A stretch of 64,000 nt of DNA, taken from assembly GCA_035709005.1 (NCBI GenBank), contig DASTFB010000071.1:1-64000 (forward strand), read 5' to 3'. Every line of letters begins with the position of its first letter. Within the stretch, counting starts at the first letter, position 1. This stretch comes from Candidatus Methylomirabilota bacterium. GTDB lineage: Bacteria > Methylomirabilota > Methylomirabilia > Rokubacteriales > CSP1-6. The position numbers and the translations under genes were made by a program. This document shows positions 1 to 15,057 of the stretch, in pieces. The notes beneath the pieces were generated by a model, which saw nothing but the letters and a program-made list of their open reading frames with translations, made no database searches and had not been told where the DNA came from.

Positions 1-1344
1 AATCATGTCCGGGTGCAAGAGCCCGACGCAGGGCAAGCCCAGCGCGGTCGCCCCGGGGACCGGCAAGCCCCCGTCGGCCTGCATCCGCGGCGCCAGGTGG
101 GGCATGAGCCGGCAGGCGAAGACCAGGACGGGTTTCTGGACGGCGTCGGCGCGCGTCTTGACCAGGCGACCCGTGACCGCGCCGGTGAGCACCCGCACGG
201 ATTCGCCGCCGAGGAGGATCCCGCCCGTGTCACAGGCGCCGACACAGATCCCGCACCCCACGCAGCGCCCCGGGTCGACGACGGCCTGGGTCTTGTACCG
301 CACGCCGTCACGGCGGGGGACCATCATGATCGCGTCGTACGGGCAGTCCTTGTAGCAGCGGGTGCACCCGGTGCAGGCCGACGTCTCCACGCGAGCCACG
401 GCCCGGCGGCGGCCGCCCAGGAGCCAGGGGAGCGAGAAGGCGAGGACTCCGGCGCCGGTCACGATCGCCCACCCGGCGCGCGCATCCATGCGGGTGAGCG
501 GGAAGTAGGCGAAGTAGAACCAGTCCACGGGAATCGTGCCGGGCAGGAGCGCGGGGTCGGCCGGTGGTCCGGAGAGCGCGGGGCGCAGAAGGCTCGCCAG
601 GAGCAGCGCTACGCCGGTCACGGCCAACACGACCCGCGGGGGGAGGAAGCGCGCGCGGCTCAGCCGCATCACGTGCAACCAGAAGAAGGCGCCGATCAGG
701 AGCGGTACCGTGATGTGCAGGAACAGGACGATGAAGAACAAGAAGCTCTGGATCCGGTCGTTACTGAGGAACGTCTGGACGATGGGCTCGGCGAAGAACG
801 GCAGCACGTCGAGAAAGCGGGCCGTCGTCATCGACAGCACGAGCGCCTGCACGTCCCACACGAGCCAGTAGCCCGTGGCGCCGGTGAACCACACGAGCGC
901 CATCAACGCCAGCCCGGTGACCCACCCGATCCAGCGGGCGCCGCCGAACCGGTCGTTGAGCAGCATCTTGAGCCCGTGCAGCGCGGCGGCGAGGAGGGCG
1001 GCGTCCGAGCTGTAGCGGTGGAGCGAGCGTATCAGCGCACCGATGCCCAGCGGCTGGGCGACGATGGCTTCCACCGAGGCGTGAGCCGCGCCGGTGCCGA
1101 CCCGGTAGAAGACGAAGAGGTAGATCCCCGTGACGGTCGCCACGGCCAGCGAGAACACGGCGATCGTCCCCGTGTGGTAGAGCGGATTGAGCGGCGCCGA
1201 GACGATCCGGTCCACCGTGGCTTCGAGGTGCTGGTAGAGGCTGCCGGCCTGGAACAGCGCCCGGCGCGGCCAGGGCTCGGGCGGCCGGGGCGCCAGCATC
1301 GAGGGGGCTCTGGGGAGTACCGGCACCTGGCCGGGCTGAAACAC
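1..1344 (-). CDS. Cytochrome b / 2x[4Fe-4S] / MvhD-like fusion protein, 3' end outside the window
   Basis: The 448 residues in the window hold three modules. Residues 35-310 are a membrane cytochrome b with two bis-His heme pairs at the canonical 14-residue spacing (H109/H123 and H210/H224). Residues 324-371 are a two-cluster ferredoxin (CTGCTRCYKDCP and CVGCGICVGACD). From about residue 405 a domain resembling the MvhD/FlpD hydrogenase iron-sulfur subunit begins (VLVFACRLM, then LPCVGLLHPDMI) and is cut by the window edge. I chose the GTG at 1344, two bases after the SCO stop; an in-frame ATG at 1299 is possible. It is the last visible gene of the heme-copper operon. The likely role is electron transfer between the quinone pool and a soluble or membrane partner. 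Domain identities come from motifs; the electron route is inferred. Confidence 0.8.
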   Translation of the reverse strand, partial: MFQPGQVPVLPRAPSMLAPRPPEPWPRRALFQAGSLYQHLEATVDRIVSAPLNPLYHTGTIAVFSLAVATVTGIYLFVFYRVGTGAAHASVEAIVAQPLGIGALIRSLHRYSSDAALLAAALHGLKMLLNDRFGGARWIGWVTGLALMALVWFTGATGYWLVWDVQALVLSMTTARFLDVLPFFAEPIVQTFLSNDRIQSFLFFIVLFLHITVPLLIGAFFWLHVMRLSRARFLPPRVVLAVTGVALLLASLLRPALSGPPADPALLPGTIPVDWFYFAYFPLTRMDARAGWAIVTGAGVLAFSLPWLLGGRRRAVARVETSACTGCTRCYKDCPYDAIMMVPRRDGVRYKTQAVVDPGRCVGCGICVGACDTGGILLGGESVRVLTGAVTGRLVKTRADAVQKPVLVFACRLMPHLAPRMQADGGLPVPGATALGLPCVGLLHPDMI

Positions 1345-1346
1345 GA

Positions 1347-2213
1347 TCAGCTCCGCTCGGCGACCAGGCGTTCGAGGGCCTGCGCCAGCTCGGCGGGCGG
1401 GTAGCTCAGGCCGCGGTACGTGAAGGCCACACGACCGGCGCGGTCGATGAGGACGACGACGTTCTCGTGTGCGATGCTCCCACCGGCCAGTCGCTCGGCG
1501 CCGACGCGGTGAGCGGCGAGGAGGCGGTCGATGGCGGTCCGATCGCCAGTGAGCAGGCGCCAGGCGTCCCCCAGCGCCCACCGGGCGGCGGTGTCGGCGA
1601 GCGCGGAGACGGTGTCGCGCTCGGGGTCCAGCGTGACGGCGGTGAACAGAGCGCGCCCGGCAACCCGGGCCTCGACCGCCTTCAGCCTCGCGATGAGGGC
1701 CGGGCACGAGGCGTGGCAGTCCGCGTACACGAACGTCAGCGCCACGGGCCGGCCCAGCGGGGCACCAAGCTCGAAGCGCTCGCCCCGGTGATCGGTCAGC
1801 ACGGCCCGGGGCGCGGGCCGGCCCTCCCTGACGGGAACCCGACCCGCCGCCGCCACTCCGCCCGCCACGCCGCCGCCGAGCAGGAGGGCCACGACTGCGA
1901 TCAGGAAGCCGAGCGCGGCCACACTGCTCACCGCGCGGCCGCCCGGGCGGCGCGCGAAGGCGCGGAGCTCCTCGCTGTAGAAGGCGGCGACGACGAGGGC
2001 GAACAGCGGAGGCTCCAGCGTTGTCAACAGTATTGCGTCCATCCGGTAGGCGCGCGTGCTCGCATTCCAGCCGAAGCAGGTGGTCAGCACCGTGTGGGCC
2101 CAGCCACCCATGTCCGGGCCGATGAGAAGGAAGACGATGACGCCGGTGCCCCACGCCAGCGCGGCCAGCGCGAGGACGGGCGCGAACAGGGGATGGCGCA
2201 ACCAGCGGGTCAC
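1347..2213 (-). CDS. SCO1/SenC-family copper chaperone with extra N-terminal membrane segments
   Basis: SCO/PrrC proteins deliver copper to the CuA centre of oxidase subunit II. This one has the thioredoxin-fold copper site CxxxC (C166 and C170, CHASC) and the distal histidine H249 in GSIAHENVV. About 120 residues of N-terminal membrane helices precede the SCO domain, more than the usual single anchor. The start at 2213 is a GTG overlapping the ctaB stop as GTGA; a GTG at 2225 is also in frame. It lies between ctaB and the cytochrome b fusion, which fits maturation of the CuA subunit encoded upstream. Confidence 0.85.
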   Translation of the reverse strand: MTRWLRHPLFAPVLALAALAWGTGVIVFLLIGPDMGGWAHTVLTTCFGWNASTRAYRMDAILLTTLEPPLFALVVAAFYSEELRAFARRPGGRAVSSVAALGFLIAVVALLLGGGVAGGVAAAGRVPVREGRPAPRAVLTDHRGERFELGAPLGRPVALTFVYADCHASCPALIARLKAVEARVAGRALFTAVTLDPERDTVSALADTAARWALGDAWRLLTGDRTAIDRLLAAHRVGAERLAGGSIAHENVVVLIDRAGRVAFTYRGLSYPPAELAQALERLVAERS

Positions 2214-3076
2214 GCCAACCGCCACCAGGTGTCGGCGACGACACCCGCGAAGAGCAGCACCAGCCAGAGATTGGCCGCGTGAAAGGCGTGCAGCGCGAGC
2301 CGCCGGTCGGCGGGCGACTTCAACAGTTGGACGTTACGTCCGAGGAGGTAGACGCTGCCCAGCGCCGTCGGCACGACATACGCGGCGCCGGCGAGGCCGA
2401 GCACGGGCGGCAGGGCGGCGAGCCCGACGAGGCCGAGCGTGTTGACGAGAATCGACCGGGCCGTCCGCGCTTCCCCTTTGACCGCCGGCAGCATCGGGAT
2501 TCGAGCTCCCGCGTACTCGTTCTTGTACGCGATGGCCAGACTCCAGAAGTGCGACGGGCTCCAGAAGAACAGGACGCCGGCGAAAATCACCGGGGGCAGG
2601 CAGAGCTCGGGCCGGGCCAGGGAGCCGCCGCCCAGGACGGCGAAGCTGCCAGCCAGCCCGCCGATGACGACGTTGAGCCAGGACCGGCGCTTCAACCAGA
2701 CGGTGTAGATCACGACGTAGGTGAAGGCGCCCAGGAAGACGTGCAGGGCGACCAGCGGATGCAGGGCCCACGCCGCGGCAGCCACGGCCATCACGACCAG
2801 CCCCAGGCCGAGCGCCACCACGTGCCAGGGGTGAGCGATCCGCCCCGAGGGCAATGGCCGCCGGGCGGTGCGGCGCATCAGGGCATCGATATCGCGGTCC
2901 AGGTAGTGGTTCAGGGCCCCGGCGCCGGCGGCGGCGGCGACGGTGATCACGAAGAGCAGCCCGAGAGCACCGGGCGCCGGCGTGCCGGGGACCGTGCCCA
3001 GATAGCCCAGCACCGCGGCCATCCCGATGAAGACGCCGATCCGAAGCTTCAGCGACTCGACGTAAGCGGCGATCAT
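2210..3076 (-). CDS. ctaB: Protoheme IX farnesyltransferase (heme O synthase)
   Basis: This UbiA-superfamily enzyme converts heme B to heme O with farnesyl diphosphate at the inner membrane. The 288-residue protein has multiple hydrophobic helices and the polyprenyl-diphosphate binding motif NHYLDRDID near residue 61, followed by MRRTARRPLPSG, which are typical of CtaB/CyoE. The start overlaps the stop of the upstream subunit I-like gene as ATGA, so the two are probably translationally coupled. Its presence implies that the heme-copper enzyme of this operon carries heme O or heme A; no ctaA is visible in the window. Confidence 0.93.
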   Translation of the reverse strand: MIAAYVESLKLRIGVFIGMAAVLGYLGTVPGTPAPGALGLLFVITVAAAAGAGALNHYLDRDIDALMRRTARRPLPSGRIAHPWHVVALGLGLVVMAVAAAAWALHPLVALHVFLGAFTYVVIYTVWLKRRSWLNVVIGGLAGSFAVLGGGSLARPELCLPPVIFAGVLFFWSPSHFWSLAIAYKNEYAGARIPMLPAVKGEARTARSILVNTLGLVGLAALPPVLGLAGAAYVVPTALGSVYLLGRNVQLLKSPADRRLALHAFHAANLWLVLLFAGVVADTWWRLA

Positions 3077-4503
3077 CGCGTGCCGGCCCGGGCCGGGACA
3101 GGCGGCCTGCGGAGTAGCGGCAAGCCGATGTTGAGGACGAAGGCGAGGCCCCCCAGGATGGCCAGCGCGGAGCCTAGCCCCATGAGGTTCATGGCGACGA
3201 GGGCCTGGGCGTCGGCCCAGGAAAACCCCACGCTCTTGCGGGGAGCGCCGCGCGCGCCCGCCCAGTGCAGACCGATCATGATCCCGAGCAGGCCGAGGCC
3301 GTAGAGGTAGGGCTGCAGCTTCGTGAGCCATGGCTTCCACGGTTGCCGGCCCGTCAGCGCGAGCAGGGCCGGCGCGAGCCCCATGTAGGCGAGGGTCACG
3401 GCGCCCACCATCCCGTGGTAGTGGGCGGGCACGCGCGTGTCCTGGCTGAACCCGATCACGCCCATCACGCCCCCCACGGCGAAGAGCGCGAAACAGAGCA
3501 GGGTACCCGAGAAAAGCGGGCTGGCCCACGGCAGCGGCCGGGGCGCGCGGGCCATCGCCACTGCGACGGCGAGGGCCAGGGGAAGCGTGGGCCCGCCCAG
3601 GCCGGAGAACGTCACCCACGTGACCACGCGATTGGTGAGTAGCGCCTCCGGAGACCAGACGAGGTACGCGCCGGCGACGGCGAGGATGAAGGGCGCGTAG
3701 GCCCACAGGGCCCCGCGGGCGCGGGCCGGCCCCTGCGGAGCGCCCAGGGCGATCGACGTCGCGATGCCCCAGGCCGCGATCATCCCGGCCGTGTGCGTGA
3801 ACTGGAAGAGGTGGCCGGCGCCCCAGAACAGCGCGCGGAGCTGGAGCATCCGGGGCTGGGCAAAGTCGAGCCGGATCCAGGTAACCCCGAGCATCACCGT
3901 GGCAACGATCACGGCGATCGCGGCGATGGCCAGCGCCGTGGCCTCCAGCGGCTCGACGGTGGCGGCGCGACGGCGCCCGCGCCGCCAGGCGGCGAGATAC
4001 GCGCCTGCCTGGAGCGCGGCGCCGGCGAAGGCCGCCCACAGCCCGGTCCAGAAGAGAGGGTGGTCGATCACGGGGATGTAATCGTTCAGATAAGGGGCGC
4101 CCATCGCCATGGCCGCGGGCACGGCGATGAGCGCCGCCCCGCCGGCCGCGGCGCCCCAGCCCGCCCACGACAGCGCGCCCGACAGCTCGTAGTTGGAGCG
4201 CCAGGCGGCGTAGACCCACAGCACGCCGGCGAAGGCGACGAACCAGATGGTGAGCGCGAAGGTCACGTGCGCGACCAGGGCCAGGTGGAACAGGCCCGCC
4301 GACGAGCCGAGCAGCTGCACGGCCGGAGTGCGCGCGAAGGCGACGAGGATGGCGAAGATCCCTGCCGCCACCAGGGAGCCCAGGGCCAGGCTGAGCCAGG
4401 CCGTGAGGAGCCGTCGCGTAGCGGCCGGAACGGCGCGCGGCAGTTGGCCAGCCGCCGAGCGCGAGGGCTTCTCGAGCTCGATCGCCGCGAGCCGGGGCGC
4501 CAT
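3073..4503 (-). CDS. Heme-copper subunit I-like paralog lacking the CuB histidine pair
   Basis: This 476-residue polytopic protein aligns by eye with the neighbouring subunit I. It keeps the low-spin heme histidine of helix II (H79), the HxH pair of helix X (H361/H363 in VPAHYHGMVGAVTLAYMG) and one helix VI histidine (H231 in GAGHLFQFTHTAGM). The adjacent His-His pair that completes CuB in subunit I is absent; the matching stretch reads LVWSPEALLTNRVV. It therefore looks able to bind heme but not a normal binuclear centre. The gene starts one base inside the stop of subunit I (TGATG) and overlaps ctaB, so it is an integral member of the operon. It could be a structural or electron-transfer subunit; its function is unknown. 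Confidence 0.75.
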   Translation of the reverse strand: MAPRLAAIELEKPSRSAAGQLPRAVPAATRRLLTAWLSLALGSLVAAGIFAILVAFARTPAVQLLGSSAGLFHLALVAHVTFALTIWFVAFAGVLWVYAAWRSNYELSGALSWAGWGAAAGGAALIAVPAAMAMGAPYLNDYIPVIDHPLFWTGLWAAFAGAALQAGAYLAAWRRGRRRAATVEPLEATALAIAAIAVIVATVMLGVTWIRLDFAQPRMLQLRALFWGAGHLFQFTHTAGMIAAWGIATSIALGAPQGPARARGALWAYAPFILAVAGAYLVWSPEALLTNRVVTWVTFSGLGGPTLPLALAVAVAMARAPRPLPWASPLFSGTLLCFALFAVGGVMGVIGFSQDTRVPAHYHGMVGAVTLAYMGLAPALLALTGRQPWKPWLTKLQPYLYGLGLLGIMIGLHWAGARGAPRKSVGFSWADAQALVAMNLMGLGSALAILGGLAFVLNIGLPLLRRPPVPARAGTR

Positions 4504-6170
4504 CACTGCACCATCCAGATGGCAGCCAGCCACTTCCAGTTGAGGAAGTAGTAGATGACGAACGCGGCCAGGAAGACGAGGACGAGCACCATCGTGCCCG
4601 ACATGGGCGTGTGGCGCATGGAAGAGGGGATCGCGGCCAGGGGCACCTGCCCGGCCTGGTCGGGGATGCGGCGGCCGAAGAAGACAGAGGCCACGGTGAG
4701 GCCGACGTAGAGAGCCCCGCCCAGCGCGGCCAGGAGCCCACCCAGCCCCATGATCCCGAGGAAGACAAAGGCGGCGGCCTCGACGGGTGGCTGGAACATC
4801 GCGCCGGTGAACTGCACGTCCCAGTGGCGCCGGGGCACGGCGTACGATCCGGCCGTCGTCATGCCCGCGGAGAAGACGGCCACCCCGAGCCCGAAGGCGT
4901 AGACCTGGAACGTGGCCAGCCGCGGAGCCACGATGCGCCGGCGCCAGATCAGCGGCACGACGTAGTAGGTGAGGCCCATGAAGGCCAGCGTGGTGCCGGC
5001 GACGACGGTGGCGTGGAAGTGGCCGGGAATGCGCAGCGTGTTGTGGGAGATGATGTTGACCTGCTCGGCCCCGAAGGTCACGCCGGTGATGCCGCCCATG
5101 AAGCCGAAGAGCACCAGCGACAGCATCAGGGCCGCAAACCCAGGGTTCCCCCATGGTGCCTTGGCCAGCCACTCGAAGAGTCCCTTCGACAGGCCGTGCC
5201 GCCGCTGGGCCACCTCGACGGACGCCGGGACCGTCATCCCGTGGATCATGCTGGCGAGGACGGCGAGGTACATGCCATAGGAGGTGTTCCAGATCTTCCA
5301 CGCCGGCGACACTTGCGGATCGACGAGCAGATGGTGGGCCGAGGCCAGGTTGATGAAGAGGATGTAGAGCACGAAGGCCCAGCGGCTGACCTTCTCGTTG
5401 ACGGGCGTGGCGCCCACCGTGAGGGTGGCCAGGAGGTACCAGACCGACACCATCGCCGCAACGTTGATCTGCTGCGAGGGATGGCCGAGTCCCCACCAGA
5501 GGAGGCGGTACATGCCCGCGTCGAGGTTCTGGACGATACCGAGCGACCACAGCCAGGTGGGGATGTAGATGATCGCGCCGTGGGCCAGCGTGACCACGGC
5601 GATGATGGCTGCCGTGAGGGCCCCGAACGTCACCAGCGGGATCGAGCCCTGATAGGTCCGCTCGGCCCGAGCCACCACCAGGGTGGCGAAGAAGTTCAGC
5701 ACGCCGACGAGGGCGCCGACGGCGAACAGGATCCAGCCCAGGTAGAAGTAGTGCACGGCTTGCATCGGCACGTAGGAGGTGAACATGACGTCGGCACCGC
5801 CCCGCAGCACGGCCACGTCGATGAGCAGCGAGCCCGCCACCATCAGCCCGAACCCCACCCAGCCCACCCGCGGCCAGGCCACGCGGCTGCCCAGCACGAT
5901 GGGCGCGGCGAAGTAGAGGATGGCGATCTCGAAGAAGATGATCCAGAAGATCAGCATGTTGATGCCGTGGAAGGTGAGGGCGCGGTAATACATCGTCGGA
6001 TCGAGCAGGTGAACGGCCGGCCACCGCGTGAGCAGGACCAGCAGCGCGGCGATCCCGCCGAAGAGGATGGCCAGCACGCCGGCCACGGCGTGGACCTTGA
6101 TGAGGCGCTCGGCGGTCAGGTGGACCCGGAAGCCGGTGTGGGCACAGGTGCGGAAGGCCGACGCGTCCAT
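4503..6170 (-). CDS. B-type heme-copper subunit I without the active-site tyrosine; probable NO reductase
   Basis: This 555-residue polytopic protein is the catalytic subunit. Heme and CuB ligands are present: H68 for low-spin heme, H230 plus H279/H280 for CuB, and H384/H386 in IPGHFHATVV. The overall pattern resembles ba3-type (B family) oxidases, for example AHHLLVDPQVSPAWK. However, the helix VI motif that reads HPxVY in O2 reductases reads HPSQQ here, so the cross-linked tyrosine is replaced by Q234. Loss of that tyrosine is characteristic of the nitric oxide reductases of this superfamily, including the CuA-containing eNOR-type families. I chose the ATG at 6170 because GGAGG precedes it and overlaps the subunit II stop. 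The NO reductase assignment is inference from one key residue and the operon context. Confidence 0.78.
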   Translation of the reverse strand: MDASAFRTCAHTGFRVHLTAERLIKVHAVAGVLAILFGGIAALLVLLTRWPAVHLLDPTMYYRALTFHGINMLIFWIIFFEIAILYFAAPIVLGSRVAWPRVGWVGFGLMVAGSLLIDVAVLRGGADVMFTSYVPMQAVHYFYLGWILFAVGALVGVLNFFATLVVARAERTYQGSIPLVTFGALTAAIIAVVTLAHGAIIYIPTWLWSLGIVQNLDAGMYRLLWWGLGHPSQQINVAAMVSVWYLLATLTVGATPVNEKVSRWAFVLYILFINLASAHHLLVDPQVSPAWKIWNTSYGMYLAVLASMIHGMTVPASVEVAQRRHGLSKGLFEWLAKAPWGNPGFAALMLSLVLFGFMGGITGVTFGAEQVNIISHNTLRIPGHFHATVVAGTTLAFMGLTYYVVPLIWRRRIVAPRLATFQVYAFGLGVAVFSAGMTTAGSYAVPRRHWDVQFTGAMFQPPVEAAAFVFLGIMGLGGLLAALGGALYVGLTVASVFFGRRIPDQAGQVPLAAIPSSMRHTPMSGTMVLVLVFLAAFVIYYFLNWKWLAAIWMVQ

Positions 6171-6180
6171 GCTGGTCCTC

Positions 6181-6705
6181 CTACTCCACGATGATCTTGC
6201 CGACCATGGTGTGGTGCCCGATGCCACAGAACTCGTTGCAGACGGCGTAGACGTCGCCCGCTTCGGTCGGCGTCACCGTCAGCACGTATTCGTAACCGGG
6301 CAGGACCATGAAGTTCAGGTTGAGCGGGAAGAGGGAAAAGCCGTGCACGAGATCCGTCGATGACAGGTGCAGCCGGTAGGTCTCGCCCTTCTTGAACTTG
6401 AGCACGGGGTACCAGGCCCACATCCGGCCCAGCATGTACACGTCCTCGCCGGGCGGCGCGGCCACGACGGGCACGCCGCTGTCCTCGCCCACCTTGTGCT
6501 TCGCCACGAAGGCCTCGACCTTGTCCTGGAAGCCGGCGGCGGTGATGCGGTAGGTCTCGAACGACGGGTTCTGCTTTCCGGTGAGGTGCCACAGCGGCAT
6601 CATCGCGAAGAGCACGAGACACCAGACGAGCGCGATGCCGATCCACACTTTCTCGGAGGGATCGACTTTCTTCCACCACACACCCTGCAGCGTCTGGAGA
6701 CTCAT
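6181..6705 (-). CDS. Heme-copper enzyme subunit II with intact CuA site
   Basis: This 174-residue membrane-anchored cupredoxin has one N-terminal helix (about residues 20-40) and a complete CuA site: H121, C156, E158, C160, H164 and M167 in VCNEFCGIGHHTM. The single-anchor, short form is typical of B-type subunit II. An intact CuA means that the enzyme takes electrons from a soluble or membrane cytochrome c or cupredoxin, unlike cNOR and qNOR, which lack CuA. It is cotranscribed ahead of subunit I with a 10-base gap. Confidence 0.9.
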   Translation of the reverse strand: MSLQTLQGVWWKKVDPSEKVWIGIALVWCLVLFAMMPLWHLTGKQNPSFETYRITAAGFQDKVEAFVAKHKVGEDSGVPVVAAPPGEDVYMLGRMWAWYPVLKFKKGETYRLHLSSTDLVHGFSLFPLNLNFMVLPGYEYVLTVTPTEAGDVYAVCNEFCGIGHHTMVGKIIVE

Positions 6706-6998: not shown

Positions 6999-7646
6999 TC
7001 AGAGCAGGCGGTGGCGGTTCGCATACGCGACCGCCTCCAGCCGGCTGTGGAGACCGAGCTTGGCCAGGATGTGCTGCACGTGGTTCTTCACGGTGGCCCG
7101 GCTCACGTGCAGCCGCTCGGCGATGTCGGCGGTTCGCACGCCGCGGGCGAGGAGCTGCAATATTTCGACCTCCCGCCGGGTCAGCGTCTCGGCCGCCGGG
7201 TCCTGGGGCTCGGCCGCCGCGGTCAGGCGCTCGTGAACCAGGCGGACCAGCTCTCGGGTTGCCGTTACGTCGCGAAACAAGTGTACGCTGACGGCCCCCG
7301 AGCCCGGACCGGGCGCGGTCAGCACGCTGATGTTGAGCCAGACCGGGCGGCCAGCCTTCGTCGTCGTACGCATGTCGAAGGCCTGCACCGACTCGCCGAG
7401 GCCCAGCAGCGTCGTGACCTGACAGCCCGGGTAGCAGACGCGGTTGGCGTGCTCGTCGTAGCCGCGCAAGACCTCACAACAGGCTCGTCCGATGACCTCT
7501 CGAGCTGGATAGCCGAGGATCTTCTCGGCCGCCCGGTTCCAGAGACGGAGGCGGCCGTCGGCGCCGACGACGAAGGCGCCGTCGCCCGCCCGCTCCAGGG
7601 CTCGGGCGAGCCAGGTGTCCCCGCTGGCAGGTATCGGCCCGGGCAT
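6999..7646 (-). CDS. PAS-LuxR transcriptional regulator with a cysteine-rich PAS domain
   Basis: This 215-residue protein has an N-terminal PAS domain (about 12-125) and a C-terminal LuxR/GerE helix-turn-helix (about 150-215; LTRREVEILQLLARG and SRATVKNHVQHILAKL). The PAS domain carries four closely spaced cysteines (CC, then VCYPGC, about residues 51-73) that could bind metal or sense redox state. There is no receiver domain. It sits between the nine-heme cytochrome and the heme-copper operon on the same strand, so it is a candidate local regulator. Start is the first ATG after an in-frame stop near 7770. The signal sensed is unknown. Confidence 0.85.
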   Translation of the reverse strand: MPGPIPASGDTWLARALERAGDGAFVVGADGRLRLWNRAAEKILGYPAREVIGRACCEVLRGYDEHANRVCYPGCQVTTLLGLGESVQAFDMRTTTKAGRPVWLNISVLTAPGPGSGAVSVHLFRDVTATRELVRLVHERLTAAAEPQDPAAETLTRREVEILQLLARGVRTADIAERLHVSRATVKNHVQHILAKLGLHSRLEAVAYANRHRLL

Positions 7647-7836: not shown

Positions 7837-9510
7837 TCAGGCCGGACGCCGGCGGTGCCAGAGCCGCCAGACGCCGTAGACGGCACCCAGCACGGCCAGC
7901 ACCATCAGCGGGCCGGTGAAGATCATGAAGAGCGTTTGCTTGCGCACCGTTTCCGCCGAGCGGAGCCGTTCGGCCTCGTCGCGGATCGAGGCGAGGTGGC
8001 CCAGCACGTCGGCGTAGCCGTACCACCACGCGTAGTCCGGGCTCATGTGGAAGGCGCCCTTGTAGCTCTTGAGCGCCGAGAAGAAGAACATGTCGAAGTA
8101 GTCGCGCTCGATGGGCGTGACGTCGTAGTAGAGGCTGGCCGGCGAGTGGAAGGCCAGCCCGCCTGGCAGCTCGACGGCAGTGAAGCGCGGTCCGGACAGG
8201 AGCCCGGCCGACACCTGGGCGTGACTGGGCCGGATGAGGCCGTCGCGATAGAGCCCGCTCAGGATGTCGCGGGCCTCGACGACGAGGGCGTCACCGGCCA
8301 GCTTGTGGGCGTCCGCCGACTCCAGATACCCACGGGCCTTGTCCTCGGAGTGGCAGGTGAGGCACACCTTGATCATCTCGTTCCGCTTGGCCAAATTCTC
8401 GGGTTCGATCGTGATGTCCTTGAGCTCCCCCAGGGCCGCCTGCGTCCCCATGCCCCAGATGATCTTCCGCGTCATGTTGTGGCTGACCGTGCGAGTCCCG
8501 TCGTCGCCGACGTAGAGCATGTGGCAGTAGGCGCAGGTCGGCGCGTCCCAGCGGGCCTGCGTCATCGAGGTGTTCCAGTTCCAGTCCTTGCCGCGGGCCA
8601 CGTAGATCGACCCGTGCTTCGACGACATGTAGGCCTCGTAGTTCGGGTGGTCGGGGCCCATGTGACAGGTGTAGCAGGCCTCCGGCTTGCGGGCTTCTTC
8701 CAGGTGGAAGGCGTGCCGGGTGTGGCAGGCGATACAGCCGTTGCGGATGGTCAGGCTCGAGGTGTCGACGTACTTCTTCTCCTCCTCGCTCCAGTACTTG
8801 GCGTCGGTGGCGCCGGCCTGAGCGTGGCAGGGATCGCACCCCATCTCCATGACCTTACGCGGCATGTGCTTGTAGTGCGGCACGCCGATGTTGCGTTCCC
8901 AGTTGATGCCCAGGTCGCCGGGCCCCGGCCCGTAGGAGTGGCCGGCGTCGAGCACGTGCTCCTTGTAGATCTGCTGGTGACAGGCCCCGCACGTCGTCTC
9001 CGGCACCCGGCCTTTGGTCGCCATGATCTCGTCGTGGTCGGTGCCGTGGCAGCCGGCGCAGGTCATCTGCGCCTGCGGGAACGTCACGCGGCGATTCTGC
9101 ACGCCAGGGCGTCCCATCGCGCTCGTCTCGAACTGCCGGACGATCTCCGGGTTGGTCTTGCGATGGCATTCGGCGCAGGTCTTCTGGTCCAGGACGCCGC
9201 GCGGGACGTCCGCGCGGATCTTGGCCGGCGGCGGCGGCACGGCCTGCAGGTACGCGTGAATGTCGCGCACCTCGGCGTCGCTGACCACCTGGGCGGGAAA
9301 GGGCGGCATGATCCCCCGCGGCTTCCGGACCTGCTGGATGAAGACGTCGACGCTGAGTTTGCTATTGGCCAGGGTGGGACCGACTCCTCCGCGTCCGCTG
9401 GCGCCGTGGCAGCCGAGGCAGCCCCGGCGGATATAAAGATCGGCTCCGGGCTCGGCTGGAGTCTGGGCGAGCGCAGCAGCCGGCCACGCAGCCACCCAGA
9501 CGACGAACAC
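7837..9510 (-). CDS. Nine-heme, membrane-anchored HAO-family cytochrome c
   Basis: This 557-residue protein has nine CxxCH motifs. The first (CLGCH) lies in a small cytochrome c domain with a likely Met ligand (IMPPFP). The other eight (CAECH, CAGCH, CGACH, CDPCH, CIACH, CYTCH, CAYCH, CLTCH) and the motif MGPDHPNYEAYMSSKHG match the octaheme hydroxylamine oxidoreductase family. A C-terminal helix (TLFMIFTGPLMVLAVLGAV) anchors it. The N-terminus is a signal peptide ending near ALAQ; the GTG at 9510 gives a short one, and in-frame codons upstream (RRRLLRVFL) suggest that the true start may be a CTG farther up. HAO-family enzymes oxidise hydroxylamine or reduce nitrite or hydroxylamine. Direction here depends on whether the P460 cross-link tyrosine is present; DYAWWYGY is a candidate region that needs alignment. 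Confidence 0.85.
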   Translation of the reverse strand: MFVVWVAAWPAAALAQTPAEPGADLYIRRGCLGCHGASGRGGVGPTLANSKLSVDVFIQQVRKPRGIMPPFPAQVVSDAEVRDIHAYLQAVPPPPAKIRADVPRGVLDQKTCAECHRKTNPEIVRQFETSAMGRPGVQNRRVTFPQAQMTCAGCHGTDHDEIMATKGRVPETTCGACHQQIYKEHVLDAGHSYGPGPGDLGINWERNIGVPHYKHMPRKVMEMGCDPCHAQAGATDAKYWSEEEKKYVDTSSLTIRNGCIACHTRHAFHLEEARKPEACYTCHMGPDHPNYEAYMSSKHGSIYVARGKDWNWNTSMTQARWDAPTCAYCHMLYVGDDGTRTVSHNMTRKIIWGMGTQAALGELKDITIEPENLAKRNEMIKVCLTCHSEDKARGYLESADAHKLAGDALVVEARDILSGLYRDGLIRPSHAQVSAGLLSGPRFTAVELPGGLAFHSPASLYYDVTPIERDYFDMFFFSALKSYKGAFHMSPDYAWWYGYADVLGHLASIRDEAERLRSAETVRKQTLFMIFTGPLMVLAVLGAVYGVWRLWHRRRPA

Positions 9511-9604
9511 AAGGAAGACCCTCAGCAGTCTCCTCCGGCGCTGCTTTGAGCCACCTTATCGCACGGGCGGGGGTTTGTCGGCAAGCCCGTTGGGACGGGA
9601 CGCT

Positions 9605-10003
9605 CTACTGGCGATGGTTGCCGCGTCCGAGCACGCTCTCCACGGTGGCGATCAGCTGGGAGATGGAGAACGGCTTGGCCAGATAGGCGGCGGCTCCCGC
9701 AGCGAGGGCGTCGCGGCGGCCGGCCTTCGACGCGTAGCCGGTGACGACGATGGCCGGCACAGACAGCCGGCTGTCACGGGCTGCCCGGACCAGATCCAGA
9801 CCGTCGCCGTCGGGCAGCCGGACATCGGCGACCACCAGTCCCACCGACGCCGCCTCCAGCGCCGCCAGCCCGGCCGCGCGGGTCCCCGCCGTGATGACGG
9901 CATAGCCGATGCGGTGCAGAATCCGCTCGTAGGTGCCGAGCAGGTCCGCTTCGTCGTCGACGACGAGAACGGCGGGCGCCGTGGCCGGGTTGTCGGCGGT
10001 CAC
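9605..10003 (-). CDS. Single-domain response regulator
   Basis: A stand-alone receiver domain of 132 residues with the acidic pocket (VVDDEAD), the phosphoacceptor aspartate in VVADVRLPDGDG, the Thr in VVTGY and the Lys in YLAKPF. It has no output domain. Its start overlaps the stop of the kinase-like gene (ATGA), so the pair is coupled. No histidine kinase is visible nearby. Confidence 0.9.
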   Translation of the reverse strand: MTADNPATAPAVLVVDDEADLLGTYERILHRIGYAVITAGTRAAGLAALEAASVGLVVADVRLPDGDGLDLVRAARDSRLSVPAIVVTGYASKAGRRDALAAGAAAYLAKPFSISQLIATVESVLGRGNHRQ

Positions 10004-11124
10004 AGCTTCGGCCGGGAGGCGGCGCGATCCAGGCGCCGAGCCAGCGCGACGACCTCGGCCACGGCGGTCCAGACCGCCTGCTCATCGGTGTGTAGCGTCA
10101 GCTCGGCCTCGGGCGTCGGCTCGTAGACCAGGACGACCTCGGGGGCCGTCCGGACCCGGCCCTGCGCGTGCCGGCTCGACGCGGACAGCGCTGGACACCA
10201 GCGCGCCACCCGCTCGCGCGCCATGCAGACGTCCGGGGGACAGAGCAACTGGATTTCCGCGAAGTGATGGATCAACTCCCGGGCGAGCCGGCGCCACTCG
10301 CGACGCGGGGCCGTGGCGTCGATGATGACGGGGATGCCGCGGTCGGTGAGGAGCCTGGCGGCCAGGGCCAGCGCGCGGTGGACGATATCTTCCTCCCACG
10401 GCAGGCCGGTGCGATCGCCCAGCAGGACCTCATGGACCGACACCGGTTCCAGGACGGCGACGGGAACGTCCAGCGCCGACACCCTTTCGGCCGCGGCGGA
10501 GGCCAGCGTCGTCTTGCCGCTGCCGGGCAGCCCTGTGATCCAGATCGCCCACGCCGCCTGGGAATAGCGGCGGCGCGCGGTGATCTCGGGCCCGGTGAGG
10601 TTGAGCACGACGGGGACGATCCTGCCGACGGCCGTCGCCACGTCGTCCCGGGCGGTATCGACTACCACCTCGGGGTGGAACGTCGGCTCGTAGGGGACGT
10701 CGACGGTGGTCCCGGTGCTTCCGGGTCGTCCTGCGGCTGGGTGGATGTGAGGGGGCACGGCGGCGACCACGGGTCGAGTGCCACGGGCGCGACACACGTC
10801 CACCGGGCAGCGCAGCTGCACCTCGGCGAAGTACGGGATGGTCGCCCGGGCCAGGTCCCGCCACGCCCGCCGGTGGGCCGTGGCATCGATGATGACGCCG
10901 ACACCGGCATTCGTCAGCACCGTGGCCATATACACGAGCGCCCGGTGGACGAGGTCGCGTTCCAGGTCGGTATGAGCCGGGGCCGGCGTCAGGATGGTCT
11001 GGACCTCGTCCAGCTCGAGCACCGCCACCGGGCGGCTCCGGGTGGCCAGATGGGCCGCCAGGGCTCGGGCCACGACCGACTTGCCGCTGCCCGGCACGCC
11101 GGTGATCCAGATCGCCCAGCTCAC
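10000..11124 (-). CDS. Tandem APS-kinase-like P-loop protein
   Basis: This 374-residue protein is an internal duplication. Each half starts with WAIWITGxPGSGK (Walker A at residues 9-16 and 198-205) and continues with closely matching blocks such as DLVHRAL/DIVHRAL, VIIDATA, W(R)RLAR and FAE(V/I)QL.CP.DVC. The motifs resemble adenylylsulfate kinase (CysC) and related zeta-toxin-like kinases. A normal CysC is one domain of about 200 residues, so the fused pair is unusual. Coupling to a receiver-only regulator suggests signalling or nucleotide-derivative metabolism rather than sulfate assimilation; no sulfate genes are adjacent. Exact substrate is unknown. Confidence 0.75.
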   Translation of the reverse strand: MSWAIWITGVPGSGKSVVARALAAHLATRSRPVAVLELDEVQTILTPAPAHTDLERDLVHRALVYMATVLTNAGVGVIIDATAHRRAWRDLARATIPYFAEVQLRCPVDVCRARGTRPVVAAVPPHIHPAAGRPGSTGTTVDVPYEPTFHPEVVVDTARDDVATAVGRIVPVVLNLTGPEITARRRYSQAAWAIWITGLPGSGKTTLASAAAERVSALDVPVAVLEPVSVHEVLLGDRTGLPWEEDIVHRALALAARLLTDRGIPVIIDATAPRREWRRLARELIHHFAEIQLLCPPDVCMARERVARWCPALSASSRHAQGRVRTAPEVVLVYEPTPEAELTLHTDEQAVWTAVAEVVALARRLDRAASRPKL

Positions 11125-11228
11125 GGCCGCGTCACCCGCGGTGGGCCGGTGACGACATCAGCTGCCCGGCTTGGGAGCCGGAACCGACGACGCGGGGCAC
11201 CATCCGGCCCATGCACTCCTGAACCTCC

Positions 11229-11678
11229 TCAGCGCCCACGGACGGTGAGGACCGGACAGGATGCAGTCGCCACCACCCGTCCGGCCACGCTGCCCAGGAA
11301 GAACTTGGCGAGGGCGCCGCGACCGTGCGTGCCCATCACGATCATGTCGGCGCGCCGGCTCTTGGCGGCGCGCACGATGCGCTCCGCGGGCATGCCTTCC
11401 AGGATGAGGCCGGTGGCCCGCACCCCGGCCTGCCGGGCCTTGGCCACCAGCTTGGTCATCTCCTTGTCGGCGTAGGCGCGCTGACGCCGTGTCACGTCGT
11501 CCAGCACCTGGGGCGAGACATAGCCGTCGCCGATCATCGGCACGAACGGCACCATGACGTGAAGGATCGTCAGTTGCCCCCGGGCGCTCTTGGCCAGCGC
11601 AACCGCCCGCTCGAAAGCCGCTCGCGAAGCGCGCGAAAAATCCGAAGGGTGCAGGATACGGCGGATCGGCTTCACCAT
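11229..11678 (-). CDS. Universal stress protein (UspA family)
   Basis: A 149-residue single Usp domain: N-terminal strand RRILHPSDFS, and the ATP-binding signature GTHGRG followed by GSVAGRVV near residues 118-135. It lies 24 bases after birA on the same strand, so it probably belongs to the usp-usp-birA transcript that begins at the sigma-54 promoter near 13520. Usp proteins bind ATP and protect against starvation, respiratory arrest or oxidative stress; the specific role is unknown. Confidence 0.92.
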   Translation of the reverse strand: MVKPIRRILHPSDFSRASRAAFERAVALAKSARGQLTILHVMVPFVPMIGDGYVSPQVLDDVTRRQRAYADKEMTKLVAKARQAGVRATGLILEGMPAERIVRAAKSRRADMIVMGTHGRGALAKFFLGSVAGRVVATASCPVLTVRGR

Positions 11679-11702
11679 GGCTCCTCCTGTGGCGAGTGCG
11701 GG

Positions 11703-12524
11703 TCAATCACTGATGTGGACCTCTTCGCCCGTCAGGGCGTGTTGGTGGCCCATGGTGTCCTCGATCCACAGCCGGCCGTGATCGTCGATACCGAGCACCC
11801 GGCCTTCCCAGGCGGCCTCGGGGCCCTGGACCTGGACGCGCCGACCGCCGAGTATCTCGCGGCGCCGCCACGCGGTCAGGATGGCCTCGGACCCCTGCTC
11901 GTCCCACTCGGATACCCAGCGCTCGAGGGCATTGAGATAGGCCGCGGCGAAGGCATTACGGTCGATCGCATGCCCCGTGGCCGCGGCCAGGGTGGTGGCG
12001 GAGTCGCCCGCCGGGCCCAGCGCGGCGCGCAGGACGGACAGCTCGACGTTGAGGTTGACGCCGACGCCGAAGATCACGTACTCGACCGCGTCGCGGTCCG
12101 TCACGCATTCCAGCAGGGTCGCGCCCACCTTCTTGTCGGCGATGAGCACGTCGTTGGGCCACTTGATACTGGGAGTGGCGCCGAACTGCTTGATGGCGTC
12201 GTAGAGGGCCAGGCCGGCGATGAGGGAGTAAGCGCCGAGGTCGCCCGCCCTCAGCTCCGGCCGCACCAGGACGGAGGCATAGAGGTTCACCCCGCTCGGC
12301 GAGAACCACACGTTCCCGTGGCGGCCCCGACCGGCCGTCTGGCCTTCCGCCAGCACCACCGTACCGGCGCACGCCCCGCCCTGGGCCAGGTTCCTGAGCC
12401 TGGCGTTGGTGGAGTCGACTTCCCCGAACAGATAGATGTGGCGCCCCACGGTCGTCGTGGTGCGGCTTCGCCGGATGTCGGCGATGCTGAGCCGGTCGGC
12501 GGCGAGGGCAACGGCCCGGCTCAC
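11703..12524 (-). CDS. birA: Biotin--[acetyl-CoA-carboxylase] ligase without HTH domain
   Basis: The 273-residue enzyme attaches biotin to biotin carboxyl carrier protein. It shows the biotinyl-AMP signature GRGRHG near residue 67, KWPNDVL near residue 123, and the C-terminal small domain (GRVLGIDDHGRLWIED). The N-terminal DNA-binding domain of bifunctional BirA is absent, so it is a group I (catalytic only) ligase. It overlaps the upstream usp by four bases. A biotin ligase inside a stress-protein cluster is unexpected. Confidence 0.93.
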   Translation of the reverse strand: MSRAVALAADRLSIADIRRSRTTTTVGRHIYLFGEVDSTNARLRNLAQGGACAGTVVLAEGQTAGRGRHGNVWFSPSGVNLYASVLVRPELRAGDLGAYSLIAGLALYDAIKQFGATPSIKWPNDVLIADKKVGATLLECVTDRDAVEYVIFGVGVNLNVELSVLRAALGPAGDSATTLAAATGHAIDRNAFAAAYLNALERWVSEWDEQGSEAILTAWRRREILGGRRVQVQGPEAAWEGRVLGIDDHGRLWIEDTMGHQHALTGEEVHISD

Positions 12525-12997
12525 CGATTCGCCTCCTGCGCCGCCTGTGAGCGCACCTGGCTCTCCGTGAGCCGCATGAGGAAGACGGGGATCTGGGCGT
12601 GCCGGAGCACCGACTCGGCCACCGACCCGAAGAGCAGCCGACCCAGTCCGCTGCGCCCATGAGTGGTCATCGCGATGAGGTCCGCGTCCACGGCCTGGGC
12701 GCAGGCGACGATCTCGGTGACGGGATTGCCGTGGCGCACCTCCAGGCGGGTGCGAACGCCCTTGGCGGCGAGGTCGCCCACGATGGGCTTCAGGTACGCC
12801 CGGGCCTCCGCCAGGCGCCCCTCGACGTCCTCGATCTCGACGTAGCGCGAGCTCTCGATCACCTGCGGGGGAACGGGCTCGACGACCCGGAGAAGGACCA
12901 CTTCCATGTCCAGCGGCCCGGCGATCCGGGTGATGAACGGCAGGATCGCCGCCGACAGGTCGGAGCCGTCGAGCGGTACCAGCGCGCGCTTATACAT
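12521..12997 (-). CDS. Universal stress protein (UspA family)
   Basis: A 158-residue Usp domain: RALVPLDGSDLS at the N-terminus, and TTHGRSGLGRLLFGSVAESVL as the nucleotide-binding loop. It overlaps the upstream usp by 8 bases and birA by 4 bases, so all three are translationally linked. It is closely similar in layout to its upstream neighbour and may form a hetero-oligomer with it (inference). Confidence 0.93.
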   Translation of the reverse strand: MYKRALVPLDGSDLSAAILPFITRIAGPLDMEVVLLRVVEPVPPQVIESSRYVEIEDVEGRLAEARAYLKPIVGDLAAKGVRTRLEVRHGNPVTEIVACAQAVDADLIAMTTHGRSGLGRLLFGSVAESVLRHAQIPVFLMRLTESQVRSQAAQEANR

Positions 12998-13475
12998 GGC
13001 TCACCTCCCTCATGGCGGCATCGCTAGCCGGCATGTGCAGGGGGGCGGCGGCGTCGCGGATCAGCAGGATCGGCGTACGGGTGCCCCGCAACACCGCTTC
13101 GGCCACCGACCCGAAGACCAGCCGCCTGAGACCGCTGCGGCCGTGGGTGGTCATGACGATCATGTCGGCCTTGGCGACCTGGGCGGTCTCGATGATGAAC
13201 GATGCGGCCGGCCCGTAGCACACCGACGTCTTCACCTCGGCGACGCCCGATCCGGCCAGGCGCGCGCGCACGGCATCGAGATACTCCTCGGCCTCGCGCA
13301 CCACCTGCACCTGGGCCTCGATCGGGTCGCCGCCCAGGAACGCGAGAGCCTCGGCTGCGCGCAGGAGCAGTAGGGTCGAGTTCGGCGTGCCCGCCAGCAA
13401 GTCGACCGCGACGGGCAGGGCTGACTCGGCGAGCGAGGAGCCATCCAGTGGAACCAGGATTCGTTCGGGCTTCAT
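12990..13475 (-). CDS. Universal stress protein (UspA family), first gene of a sigma-54-type transcript
   Basis: A 161-residue Usp domain (ERILVPLDGSSLAESAL; TTHGRSGLRRLVFGSVAEAVL). I chose the ATG at 13475 because GGAGG precedes it directly and because the longer in-frame start at 13538 lies upstream of a strong sigma-54 promoter match (13516-13531), which would place that start outside the transcript. Regulation by the adjacent NtrC-type activator is therefore likely. Confidence 0.92.
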   Translation of the reverse strand: MKPERILVPLDGSSLAESALPVAVDLLAGTPNSTLLLLRAAEALAFLGGDPIEAQVQVVREAEEYLDAVRARLAGSGVAEVKTSVCYGPAASFIIETAQVAKADMIVMTTHGRSGLRRLVFGSVAEAVLRGTRTPILLIRDAAAPLHMPASDAAMREVSHV

Positions 13476-13515
13476 GCCACCTCCCCGGTGCACGTCGGCA
13501 CCTGCTGCCTGGATG

Positions 13516-13531
13516 AGCAACGGGGCTGCCA
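13516..13531 (-). promoter_or_regulatory. Sigma-54 (-24/-12) promoter for the usp-usp-birA cluster
   Basis: On the minus strand the sequence is TGGCAGCCCCGTTGCT, which matches TGGCA, six bases, TTGCW with exact spacing. The predicted start of transcription is near 13505, about 30 bases before the usp ATG at 13475, leaving room for its GGAGG. The gene just upstream encodes a sigma-54 activator. Confidence 0.7.
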
Positions 13532-13656
13532 TCGCCAAAGGGTCGTAAATTCACGATGTTCGCATTTATCGTCGACGGGCCGACTGGGGTGGTCACGTCC
13601 CTGTGGGGCGGCCGCGCCCCGCGCCCTGGGCGCGGTGGCGCTCGAAGATGGGCGGG

Positions 13657-15057
13657 CTAGCGGATGCCGTGCTTGCTGGCGAGGCGGTGAAAGGTCTTGC
13701 GATCGATGCCGGCCGCCTTGGCGGCCGACGAGACGTTGCCGCCATGACGGTCCAGGAGGTCGCGCAGGTAGGCGCCTTCCAGCGTGTGCAGCCATTCCTC
13801 CCGCGCCTCCTGCAGCGTACGGCCGGTCGCGGCGCCGGGGGCGACCGCTGGCATGGCTGAGGGCATCGGCATGCCCGCCTCGACGTGGCCGCTCTCCAGC
13901 ACGTAGCCGGGCAAGTCGCGACGGCGGACGATGGGCTCGTCGGCCAGCGCGCACGCGCGCTCGATGACGTTCTGCAGCTCGCGCACGTTACCGGGCCACG
14001 CGTAGGTCTCCAGCGCCGCCTGGGCGTCATCGGCCATGCCGGTGACACGCCCCTGACCGTAGCGCTTGAGGAAGGCGTGAGCCAGCAGGCGGATGTCGCC
14101 AGCCCGCTGGCGGAGGGGCGGCAGCTCGATGGCGATCACATTGACGCGGTAGTAGAGCTCCTCCCGGAACTGGCCGGCGGCCACGGCCTCCCGGAGATTG
14201 CGGTTGGTGGCTGAGACCACGCGCACGTCGACGTCGATCTGGGCGGTGCCGCCCACCCGCCGGATCTGGCGCTCCTGGACGGCCCGCAGGAGCTTGGACT
14301 GGAGCGGCAGCGGCAGGTCGCCGATCTCGTCCAGGAAGAGCGTGCCCCGGCTGGCAGTCTCCATGAGCCCCGGCTTGCTGCGGATGGCCCCGGTGAAGGC
14401 GCCCTTCTCGTGGCCGAACAACTCCGACTCCAGCAAGTTCTCGGGCAGCGAAGCGCAATCGACGGGGACGAAGGCCTGCGCCGCGCGCGGGCTGTTGGCG
14501 TGGATGGCCCGGGCGATCAGCTCCTTGCCGGTTCCCGACTCGCCGAGGATCAGGATGTTAGCCTCGGAGCGGGCCGCCTTCTTCACGAGCTCGAAGACCT
14601 GGGCCATGGCCGGGCTGCGGCCGATGATGTTCTCCAGCCCGAACGCCTCCTGGAGCTGCTCACGCAGGTTGCGATTCTCCACCTGCAGCCGCCGCTGCCG
14701 CAGGGCCCGCTCCACGGAGACCTGGAGCTGATCGACCGAGAAGTTCTTCGGCAGGTAATCGAAGGCGCCTTCCTTGATGGCCGCCACCGCGGACTCGATG
14801 GTAGCGAACGCCGTGATCACGATGACCGGGAGGGTCGAGTCGATCTCCCGAGCGCGGCGGAGGAGGTCCATGCCGTCCATGCCAGGCATCTTGAGGTCGG
14901 TCAACAGCAGATCGGGCCGCTCGGATTCCAGGAGCCCGACCGCCCGCTTGGTATCGGTCGCGGAGAGGCACCGGTAACCGGCGCGCCGCAGGATGCGCGT
15001 GCAGTTCTCGACCATGTCGGGTTCGTCATCGACGATCAGAACACGCTCGCCGTTCAT
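13657..15057 (-). CDS. NtrC-family sigma-54-dependent response regulator
   Basis: This 466-residue protein has a receiver domain (residues 1-120, phosphoacceptor D54 in LLTDLKMPG), an AAA+ domain (about 145-385: Walker A GESGTGKE, GAFTGA loop for sigma-54 contact, Walker B TLFLDEIGDL) and a Fis-type helix-turn-helix at the C-terminus (NVSSAAKAAGIDRKTFHRL). The usual Lys-Pro of the receiver reads K104-N105, a mild oddity. No partner histidine kinase is next to it. It is flanked by two sigma-54 promoter matches, each facing away toward usp genes, so those are its most likely targets. Start is the ATG at 15057; longer frames upstream are non-coding. Confidence 0.95.
   Translation of the reverse strand: MNGERVLIVDDEPDMVENCTRILRRAGYRCLSATDTKRAVGLLESERPDLLLTDLKMPGMDGMDLLRRAREIDSTLPVIVITAFATIESAVAAIKEGAFDYLPKNFSVDQLQVSVERALRQRRLQVENRNLREQLQEAFGLENIIGRSPAMAQVFELVKKAARSEANILILGESGTGKELIARAIHANSPRAAQAFVPVDCASLPENLLESELFGHEKGAFTGAIRSKPGLMETASRGTLFLDEIGDLPLPLQSKLLRAVQERQIRRVGGTAQIDVDVRVVSATNRNLREAVAAGQFREELYYRVNVIAIELPPLRQRAGDIRLLAHAFLKRYGQGRVTGMADDAQAALETYAWPGNVRELQNVIERACALADEPIVRRRDLPGYVLESGHVEAGMPMPSAMPAVAPGAATGRTLQEAREEWLHTLEGAYLRDLLDRHGGNVSSAAKAAGIDRKTFHRLASKHGIR

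Follow-up and report, generated by a model that had tools for sequence, protein, structure and literature searches.

At the first base of the window, the whole stretch of 64,000 nucleotides that was analysed, lies the gene of an evolutionarily conserved membrane protein in which a complex-III-type cytochrome b is fused to an Hdr-type Fe–S arm. Since this fusion is found beside an unusual NO reductase in most of the genomes examined, it probably feeds electrons to NO reductase, and may link NADH to it. We put at roughly one half the probability that the fusion serves a terminal-reductase complex as its electron-transfer module in the membrane; it would then be a Rieske-free relative of complex III that works specifically with a heme-copper reductase of the CuA type (eNOR in most cases) and whose cytoplasmic Fe–S branch docks a flavoprotein. 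The fusion gene, its parts, and the genes of the surrounding cluster have the following window coordinates.

1–1344 (−), fusion protein gene, with a GTG start at 1344 and open at the left end
1–125 (−), N-terminal part of the FlpD/MvhD domain of the fusion, the first third of the domain, VLVFACRL...GLPCVGLLHPDMI
217–399 (−), two [4Fe-4S] clusters of the fusion, CxxCxxCxxxC twice, residues ~316–376
415–1215 (−), cytochrome b part of the fusion with helices E–F, residues ~44–310, with the four heme-ligating His and, where PEWY has its Glu, an Asp (coordinates converted from residue numbers and rounded)
1347–2225 (−), SCO1/SenC copper chaperone
2213–3076 (−), UbiA-family prenyltransferase, CyoE-like heme O synthase
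3076–4503 (−), HCO2, a second heme-copper-fold protein, with the heme His and one CuB His kept and no helix VII His pair
4503–6227 (−), heme-copper reductase subunit I of eNOR type, with GHPSQQ, the CuB His pair, and HFH present
6181–6705 (−), subunit II with an intact CuA site, CNEFCGIGHHTM plus an upstream His
6999–7646 (−), PAS-LuxR regulator
7837–9510 (−), cytochrome c plus octaheme HAO-like protein, nine CxxCH, a possible NO source

The fusion gene is cut at its left end because the first base of the window is also the first base of its contig (C71 of genome G000). Its remaining 75 codons and stop are located in the same genome at bases 1–228 (+) of contig C87 (L084), where the frame from base 1 extends the protein without a lost residue, as judged by homologues (...GLLHPDMI on C71, followed by RQALDAGAAGVYVAACHPEDCQFREGS... 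on C87). The joined chain has 523 residues and is 73–77% identical to its relatives, with which it aligns gap-free over the border of the contigs; we infer this join from homology, no sequence spanning the border. Searches with Pfam profiles of the part inside the window gave Cytochrome_B (residues 44–229, E-value of 2.6e-18) and a two-cluster ferredoxin (Fer4 and others, residues 316–376, E-values of 1e-9 to 1e-10), and no match to FlpD, because just the first ~45 positions of that profile are present there. A search for FlpD in the same genome instead found it on C87, with bases 4–216 (+) matching profile positions 46–117 (E-value of 7.4e-9, 38 bits). Four genomes from the same family contain full-length, unbroken homologues of the fusion, and the three same-family homologues that were scanned with Pfam matched FlpD with E-values of 6e-13, 3e-14, and 4e-16; in the relatives, FlpD (PF02662) scored 49–60 bits, above the curated cut-off of 22.3 bits. 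Since the C87 piece completes the FlpD domain and unbroken homologues are found elsewhere, we take the three-part fusion as real. An assembly chimera was ruled out, with the same domain order being unbroken in other genomes and the C-terminal piece of the protein itself lying at the start of another contig. The original prediction, which had read a cytochrome b, a two-cluster ferredoxin, and an MvhD/FlpD-like domain in one chain and had hung this on the FlpD homology of the C-terminal part, is thus borne out, albeit that only the first two domains were recovered by Pfam from the window itself.

The domain order over the ~523 residues is cytochrome b (helices A–F, two b hemes), two [4Fe-4S] clusters, and FlpD. 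In fact, residues 49–310 of the predicted structure (pLDDT of 84.9) superpose on helices A–F of cytochrome b (Z-score of ~25, 2.3 Å for 253 residues), and the sequence profile of the fusion matches cytochrome b6 (1e-31), MvhD (5odc_D, E-value of 2e-17), and the ferredoxin region of HdrA (1e-13). Helices E–F also align to subunit IV of b6f, placing the invariant Asp on the PEWY Glu, with this match being a modest one (E-value of 3.5e-4). The heme ligands His105, His119, His206, and His220 are kept, which corresponds to bis-His coordination of two b hemes (bL and bH) in a four-helix bundle, as in the cytochrome bc1/b6f family. In an alignment of 18 homologues, one of which is N-terminally cut and is without the first two heme His, we noted the retention of the four heme His, eight ferredoxin Cys, four FlpD Cys, and Asp270 (L003 numbering). 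Within the region of the PEWY Qo motif, all homologues have Asp at the Glu position and most have the Trp, while all twelve Fe–S Cys of the arm are invariant across phyla. By homology to cytochrome b, helix F would end in the cytoplasm, and so the Fe–S arm is predicted to be cytoplasmic and beside heme bH, the topology and cofactor content of the fusion both being modelled on its homologues. Moreover, this arm matches the C-terminus of HdrA2 (E-value of 2e-29 in L018, NCBIfam) over the last ~200 of 777 positions, i.e., the C-terminal quarter; against the full-length HdrA2 model, the fusions score 74–102 bits, below an NCBIfam cut-off that for the full-length flavoprotein stands at 1100 bits.

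Given the cytochrome b fold and the Qo-like motif, we favour the fusion as a candidate for quinone exchange. The same conserved fold and motif would also suit a simple quinol:CuA oxidoreductase, where quinol electrons travel over the b hemes to the periplasm and the Fe–S/FlpD arm has a structural or regulatory role or acts in redox sensing, and here it is in keeping that no flavoprotein gene is seen beside the fusion of the window or in most of the other clusters. We nonetheless judge so simple an enzyme to be quite unlikely, as the twelve invariant Fe–S Cys fit an electron path better than a relic.

The cluster in the window runs in the order of CuA subunit II, eNOR-type subunit I, HCO2, CyoE, SCO, and fusion. 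When subunit I is aligned, its GHPSQQ falls on GHPxxY and thereby puts a Gln at the position of the cross-linked Tyr, which is the mark of eNOR (PMC8756737), and the CuA ligand positions in subunit II are kept with respect to ba3 subunit II. On these residues, we predict that the neighbouring reductase is of the eNOR type and reduces NO. The Gln-type subunit I agrees with the original placement of the fusion in a NO reductase-like operon, whereas its placement at the end needs a minor correction, as on C87 the fusion is followed by a short gene for a periplasmic domain, and then by a TetR-type regulator and unrelated catabolic genes. HCO2 matches no NCBIfam family; since the His pair of helix VII is missing, it is likely to bind heme and not CuB. 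As a separate observation, HCO2 is also located beside eNOR subunit I in Nitrospirota clusters, with the heme His of helices II and X and the His of helix VI kept. The PAS-LuxR regulator recurs near the fusion in L006/L014, L007/L010, and L011. Elsewhere in the window, there are two tandem APS-kinase-like domains in a single protein (10000–11124, −) and, as the sole Rfam match and far from the fusion, a TPP riboswitch (RF00059, 53273–53373, +, 66 bits).

As for the supply of NO, the HAO-type nine-heme protein upstream in the window has the HAO-like structure 6h5l as its best PDB match (E-value of 1.5e-40), and our guess is that this protein makes the NO. NirK has no match in the window genome; it is found near the cluster in G018, G098, and G155 (L008 and L009 being among the loci that show it), with a weaker NirK-like match in G009. 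The same cytochrome c–HAO-like fusion, again with nine CxxCH, is also seen in L011 (2404–4077, −).

Homologues of the fusion were found in 36 genomes from the Methylomirabilota, Nitrospirota, Myxococcota/Deltaproteobacteria, Pseudomonadota, Acidobacteriota, and Chloroflexota. A CuA-type heme-copper reductase is encoded within the retrieved flank in 26 of the 36; among the other 10, several are cut by contig ends, and L017, G132, and G347, in whose read flanks no CuA reductase was found, look truly separate. These counts cover mutually related organisms and so are not independent. The helix VI residue of subunit I could be read in 22, and is Gln in 19 and Tyr (oxygen-reductase type) in three Chloroflexota. 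In the fusion tree, these three form one Chloroflexota clade (100/100), a pattern that is consistent with a single swap of partner, though long branches meet there. With a Tyr-type reductase beside the Chloroflexota fusion, eNOR is not the sole partner. Within 95 Methylomirabilota genomes, eNOR subunit I occurs in 10 and the fusion in nine, all nine being shared, and the tenth eNOR genome, without the fusion, is G088, which is 77% complete. Separately, four loci from one Nitrospirota group (L097, L098, L099, and L100) have GHFK for GHFH in the eNOR-like subunit I, i.e., a Lys at the second His of the helix X motif, the expected low-spin heme ligand. Within the same Methylomirabilota family as the window, G083 and G090 carry a second, diverged cluster of fusion and eNOR (L101/L102 versus the window), with the periplasmic domain fused in G083, and this suggests lateral transfer of the whole cluster.

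Beyond the FlpD domain, an extra transmembrane helix and a periplasmic beta domain extend the chain in Thermodesulfovibrionia, Chloroflexota, and a second Methylomirabilota clade, while in the lineage of the window the periplasmic domain is encoded by the next, overlapping small gene (C87, 225–761). It has no Pfam or PDB sequence match and no recognisable cofactor motif. In L015, the chain is further extended by a cytochrome c domain, and a cytochrome c is encoded adjacent to the fusion in L018, L021, and L024. No Rieske protein was recognised in the clusters of the fusion itself; one was seen in L019 alone, with a separate cytochrome b and on the other strand. There, at 9501–14847 (−), the genes for a Rieske protein, a cytochrome b, a GltD-like FAD/Fe–S protein, and a six-CxxCH cytochrome c resemble the anammox Rieske/cytochrome b–NAD(P) oxidoreductase complexes.

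In the mechanism that we propose, the two b hemes would span the membrane. On the periplasmic side, there would be a Qo-like pocket, where the invariant Asp substitutes for the Glu of PEWY; the small periplasmic domain, be it fused or encoded by the next gene and sometimes accompanied by a fused or adjacent cytochrome c, would be turned toward the CuA subunit. In the cytoplasm, electrons would move between heme bH, the two [4Fe-4S] clusters, and the four-Cys [2Fe-2S] cluster of FlpD, with the latter docking a flavoprotein that would be NuoF-like in Nitrospirota. Our preference, a tentative one, is that quinol is oxidised periplasmically, whereupon one electron would pass to CuA and NO and the other via bL, bH, and the Fe–S arm to a cytoplasmic acceptor, partial versions of this scheme included. 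Bifurcation proper without a Rieske protein, with quinol giving one electron to NO (or O2) via the CuA reductase and the other to NAD+ or ferredoxin by way of bH, the two [4Fe-4S] clusters, and FlpD, strikes us as doubtful. Among the possible directions, we lean toward bifurcation from quinol on account of the acidic residue that is conserved at Qo and of the anammox precedent in the literature (PMC12954380); counting against it, the clusters have no Rieske protein, and so the usual first acceptor for bifurcation at Qo is missing.

A candidate cytoplasmic partner is encoded by a NuoF-like gene (FMN domain, SLBB, and N3 cluster) that adjoins the fusion in nine Nitrospirota genomes, this neighbour being confined to one Nitrospirota group. 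Fusion copies are visible on both sides in seven of the nine NuoF loci, the remaining two being cut off by the end of the contig. The NuoF-like protein scores 461 bits versus an equivalog cut-off of 559, and only L018 and L019 retain an intact FMN glycine loop (GRGGAGFPTG), which is altered in seven of the nine copies; NADH oxidation is hence plausible in these two and unsure in the other copies. The window genome also contains two NuoF genes, both far from the fusion (C37 and C87:323661). Such a neighbour would equally serve a downhill feed in the reverse sense, from NAD(P)H or ferredoxin through a flavoprotein into the FlpD/Fe–S arm and onward over heme bH and then heme bL, with quinone, cytochrome c, or CuA as the acceptor; the complex would be a rapid means of scavenging NO that sidesteps complexes I and III. 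A CuA acceptor in the cluster and a cytochrome c that is fused or adjacent fit this route as well, and it would make a Rieske protein unnecessary. However, outward electron movement would cost proton motive force and waste energy that complex I would save, and the invariant acidic residue at the Qo motif would be left unexplained, so that we regard a downhill feed as possible but would sooner expect it not to hold.

An Hdr-type link would have the FlpD domain hand electrons to an HdrA/HdrB complex. In methanogens, FlpD serves as the subunit that docks HdrA (5odc), and the arm resembles HdrA2. However, in the window genome (95% complete) the search for HdrA gave just a ~60-position ferredoxin-like match to the HdrA2 model, and no other FlpD protein besides the fusion was found there; G001, G013, and G018 likewise show nothing beyond short matches, while HdrA-like proteins are present in G009 and G087. 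No hdrA, for which the original prediction had suggested looking near the fusion, lies in the first 9 kb after it, nor was any hdr gene seen among those neighbours in the fusion clusters that were identified, with individual scans covering only part of the flanking genes. Because the window genome is without HdrA, an Hdr partner is unsupported, and we consider this link very improbable. Of the originally proposed connection of the quinone pool to a flavin or Hdr-like partner, the flavin half is supported, with a cytochrome b of quinone type at one end and the NuoF neighbours of nine Nitrospirota genomes at the other, and the Hdr half is not, a NuoF-type flavoprotein being the better candidate. 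Weighing on our reading of the fusion as a reductase module are the missing Rieske protein, the restriction of NuoF to one Nitrospirota group and its degenerate loops, the periplasmic domain without a recognisable cofactor motif, the at least three genomes in whose read flank no CuA reductase was found (L017, G132, and G347), and the Tyr-type reductase of Chloroflexota.

Open-licence papers say little about the physiological electron donor of eNOR or how the enzyme is wired, and the fusion offers a concrete candidate partner, which occurs in several phyla and whose gene neighbourhoods link it to NirK, HAO-like proteins, and NuoF. Were bifurcation to hold, electrons from quinone would be bifurcated to NAD(P)H in organisms other than anammox bacteria and with no Rieske protein involved, the N2O that soil and groundwater bacteria form would be tied to their NADH supply, and terminal respiration would directly yield low-potential reductant. 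Even the modest reading alone means that parts of complex III and Hdr can fuse in one chain.

Of the known systems, the nearest published parallel is found in the anammox bacterium Kuenenia, whose Kuste4569–4574 and Kustd1480–1485 are Rieske/cytochrome b complexes with a proposed NAD(P) oxidoreductase (PMC12954380). Common to these and the fusion are a complex-III-type cytochrome b and a predicted cytoplasmic Fe–S path to a proposed NAD(P) oxidoreductase, and in one anammox complex the positive side carries an octaheme protein that is HAO-like (PMC12954380), a kind of protein also encoded near the window gene. In contrast, the anammox complexes have a Rieske protein and separate subunits (PMC12954380), whereas the fusion has no Rieske protein, an HdrA2/MvhD-type arm fused to its cytochrome b, and a CuA heme-copper reductase as partner. 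For a cytoplasmic NAD(P) oxidoreductase encoded in the cluster, the NuoF-like gene is a candidate in the nine Nitrospirota clusters, and none is encoded beside the fusion of the window. With cytochrome b6 plus subunit IV of b6f and with cytochrome b of bc1, the fusion shares helices A–F, the four heme ligands, and an acidic residue at the PEWY Glu position, and it differs in being a single chain whose membrane part ends after helix F, in having Asp for Glu, in the absence of a Rieske protein and of any recognised cytochrome c1/f gene alongside, and in its C-terminal cytoplasmic Fe–S arm. As in the C-terminal region of HdrA2 (an HdrA–MvhD fusion), two [4Fe-4S] clusters are followed directly by FlpD/MvhD; unlike HdrA2, a cytochrome b takes the place of the FAD part and just four Cys are conserved in the FlpD domain. 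The likeness to subunits I and II of eNOR lies in the Gln at the Tyr position of the window subunit I and in the adjoining CuA-type subunit II. An Anaerolineae protein (RME88945.1) in Table A3 of PMC8756737 is listed with cytochrome b6, DMSOR_beta-like Fe–S, FlpD, and cytochrome c domains, the same as in L015, as an entry in a survey of a cytochrome c domain where we found its function and gene context undiscussed. Besides this entry (PMC8756737), the open-licence papers searched neither include a cytochrome b fusion among the named subunits of eNOR nor describe the fusion with eNOR, an earlier mention elsewhere being possible. Undescribed with eNOR in those papers, the fusion belongs with the complex-III-like cytochrome b systems that have a cytoplasmic redox arm.
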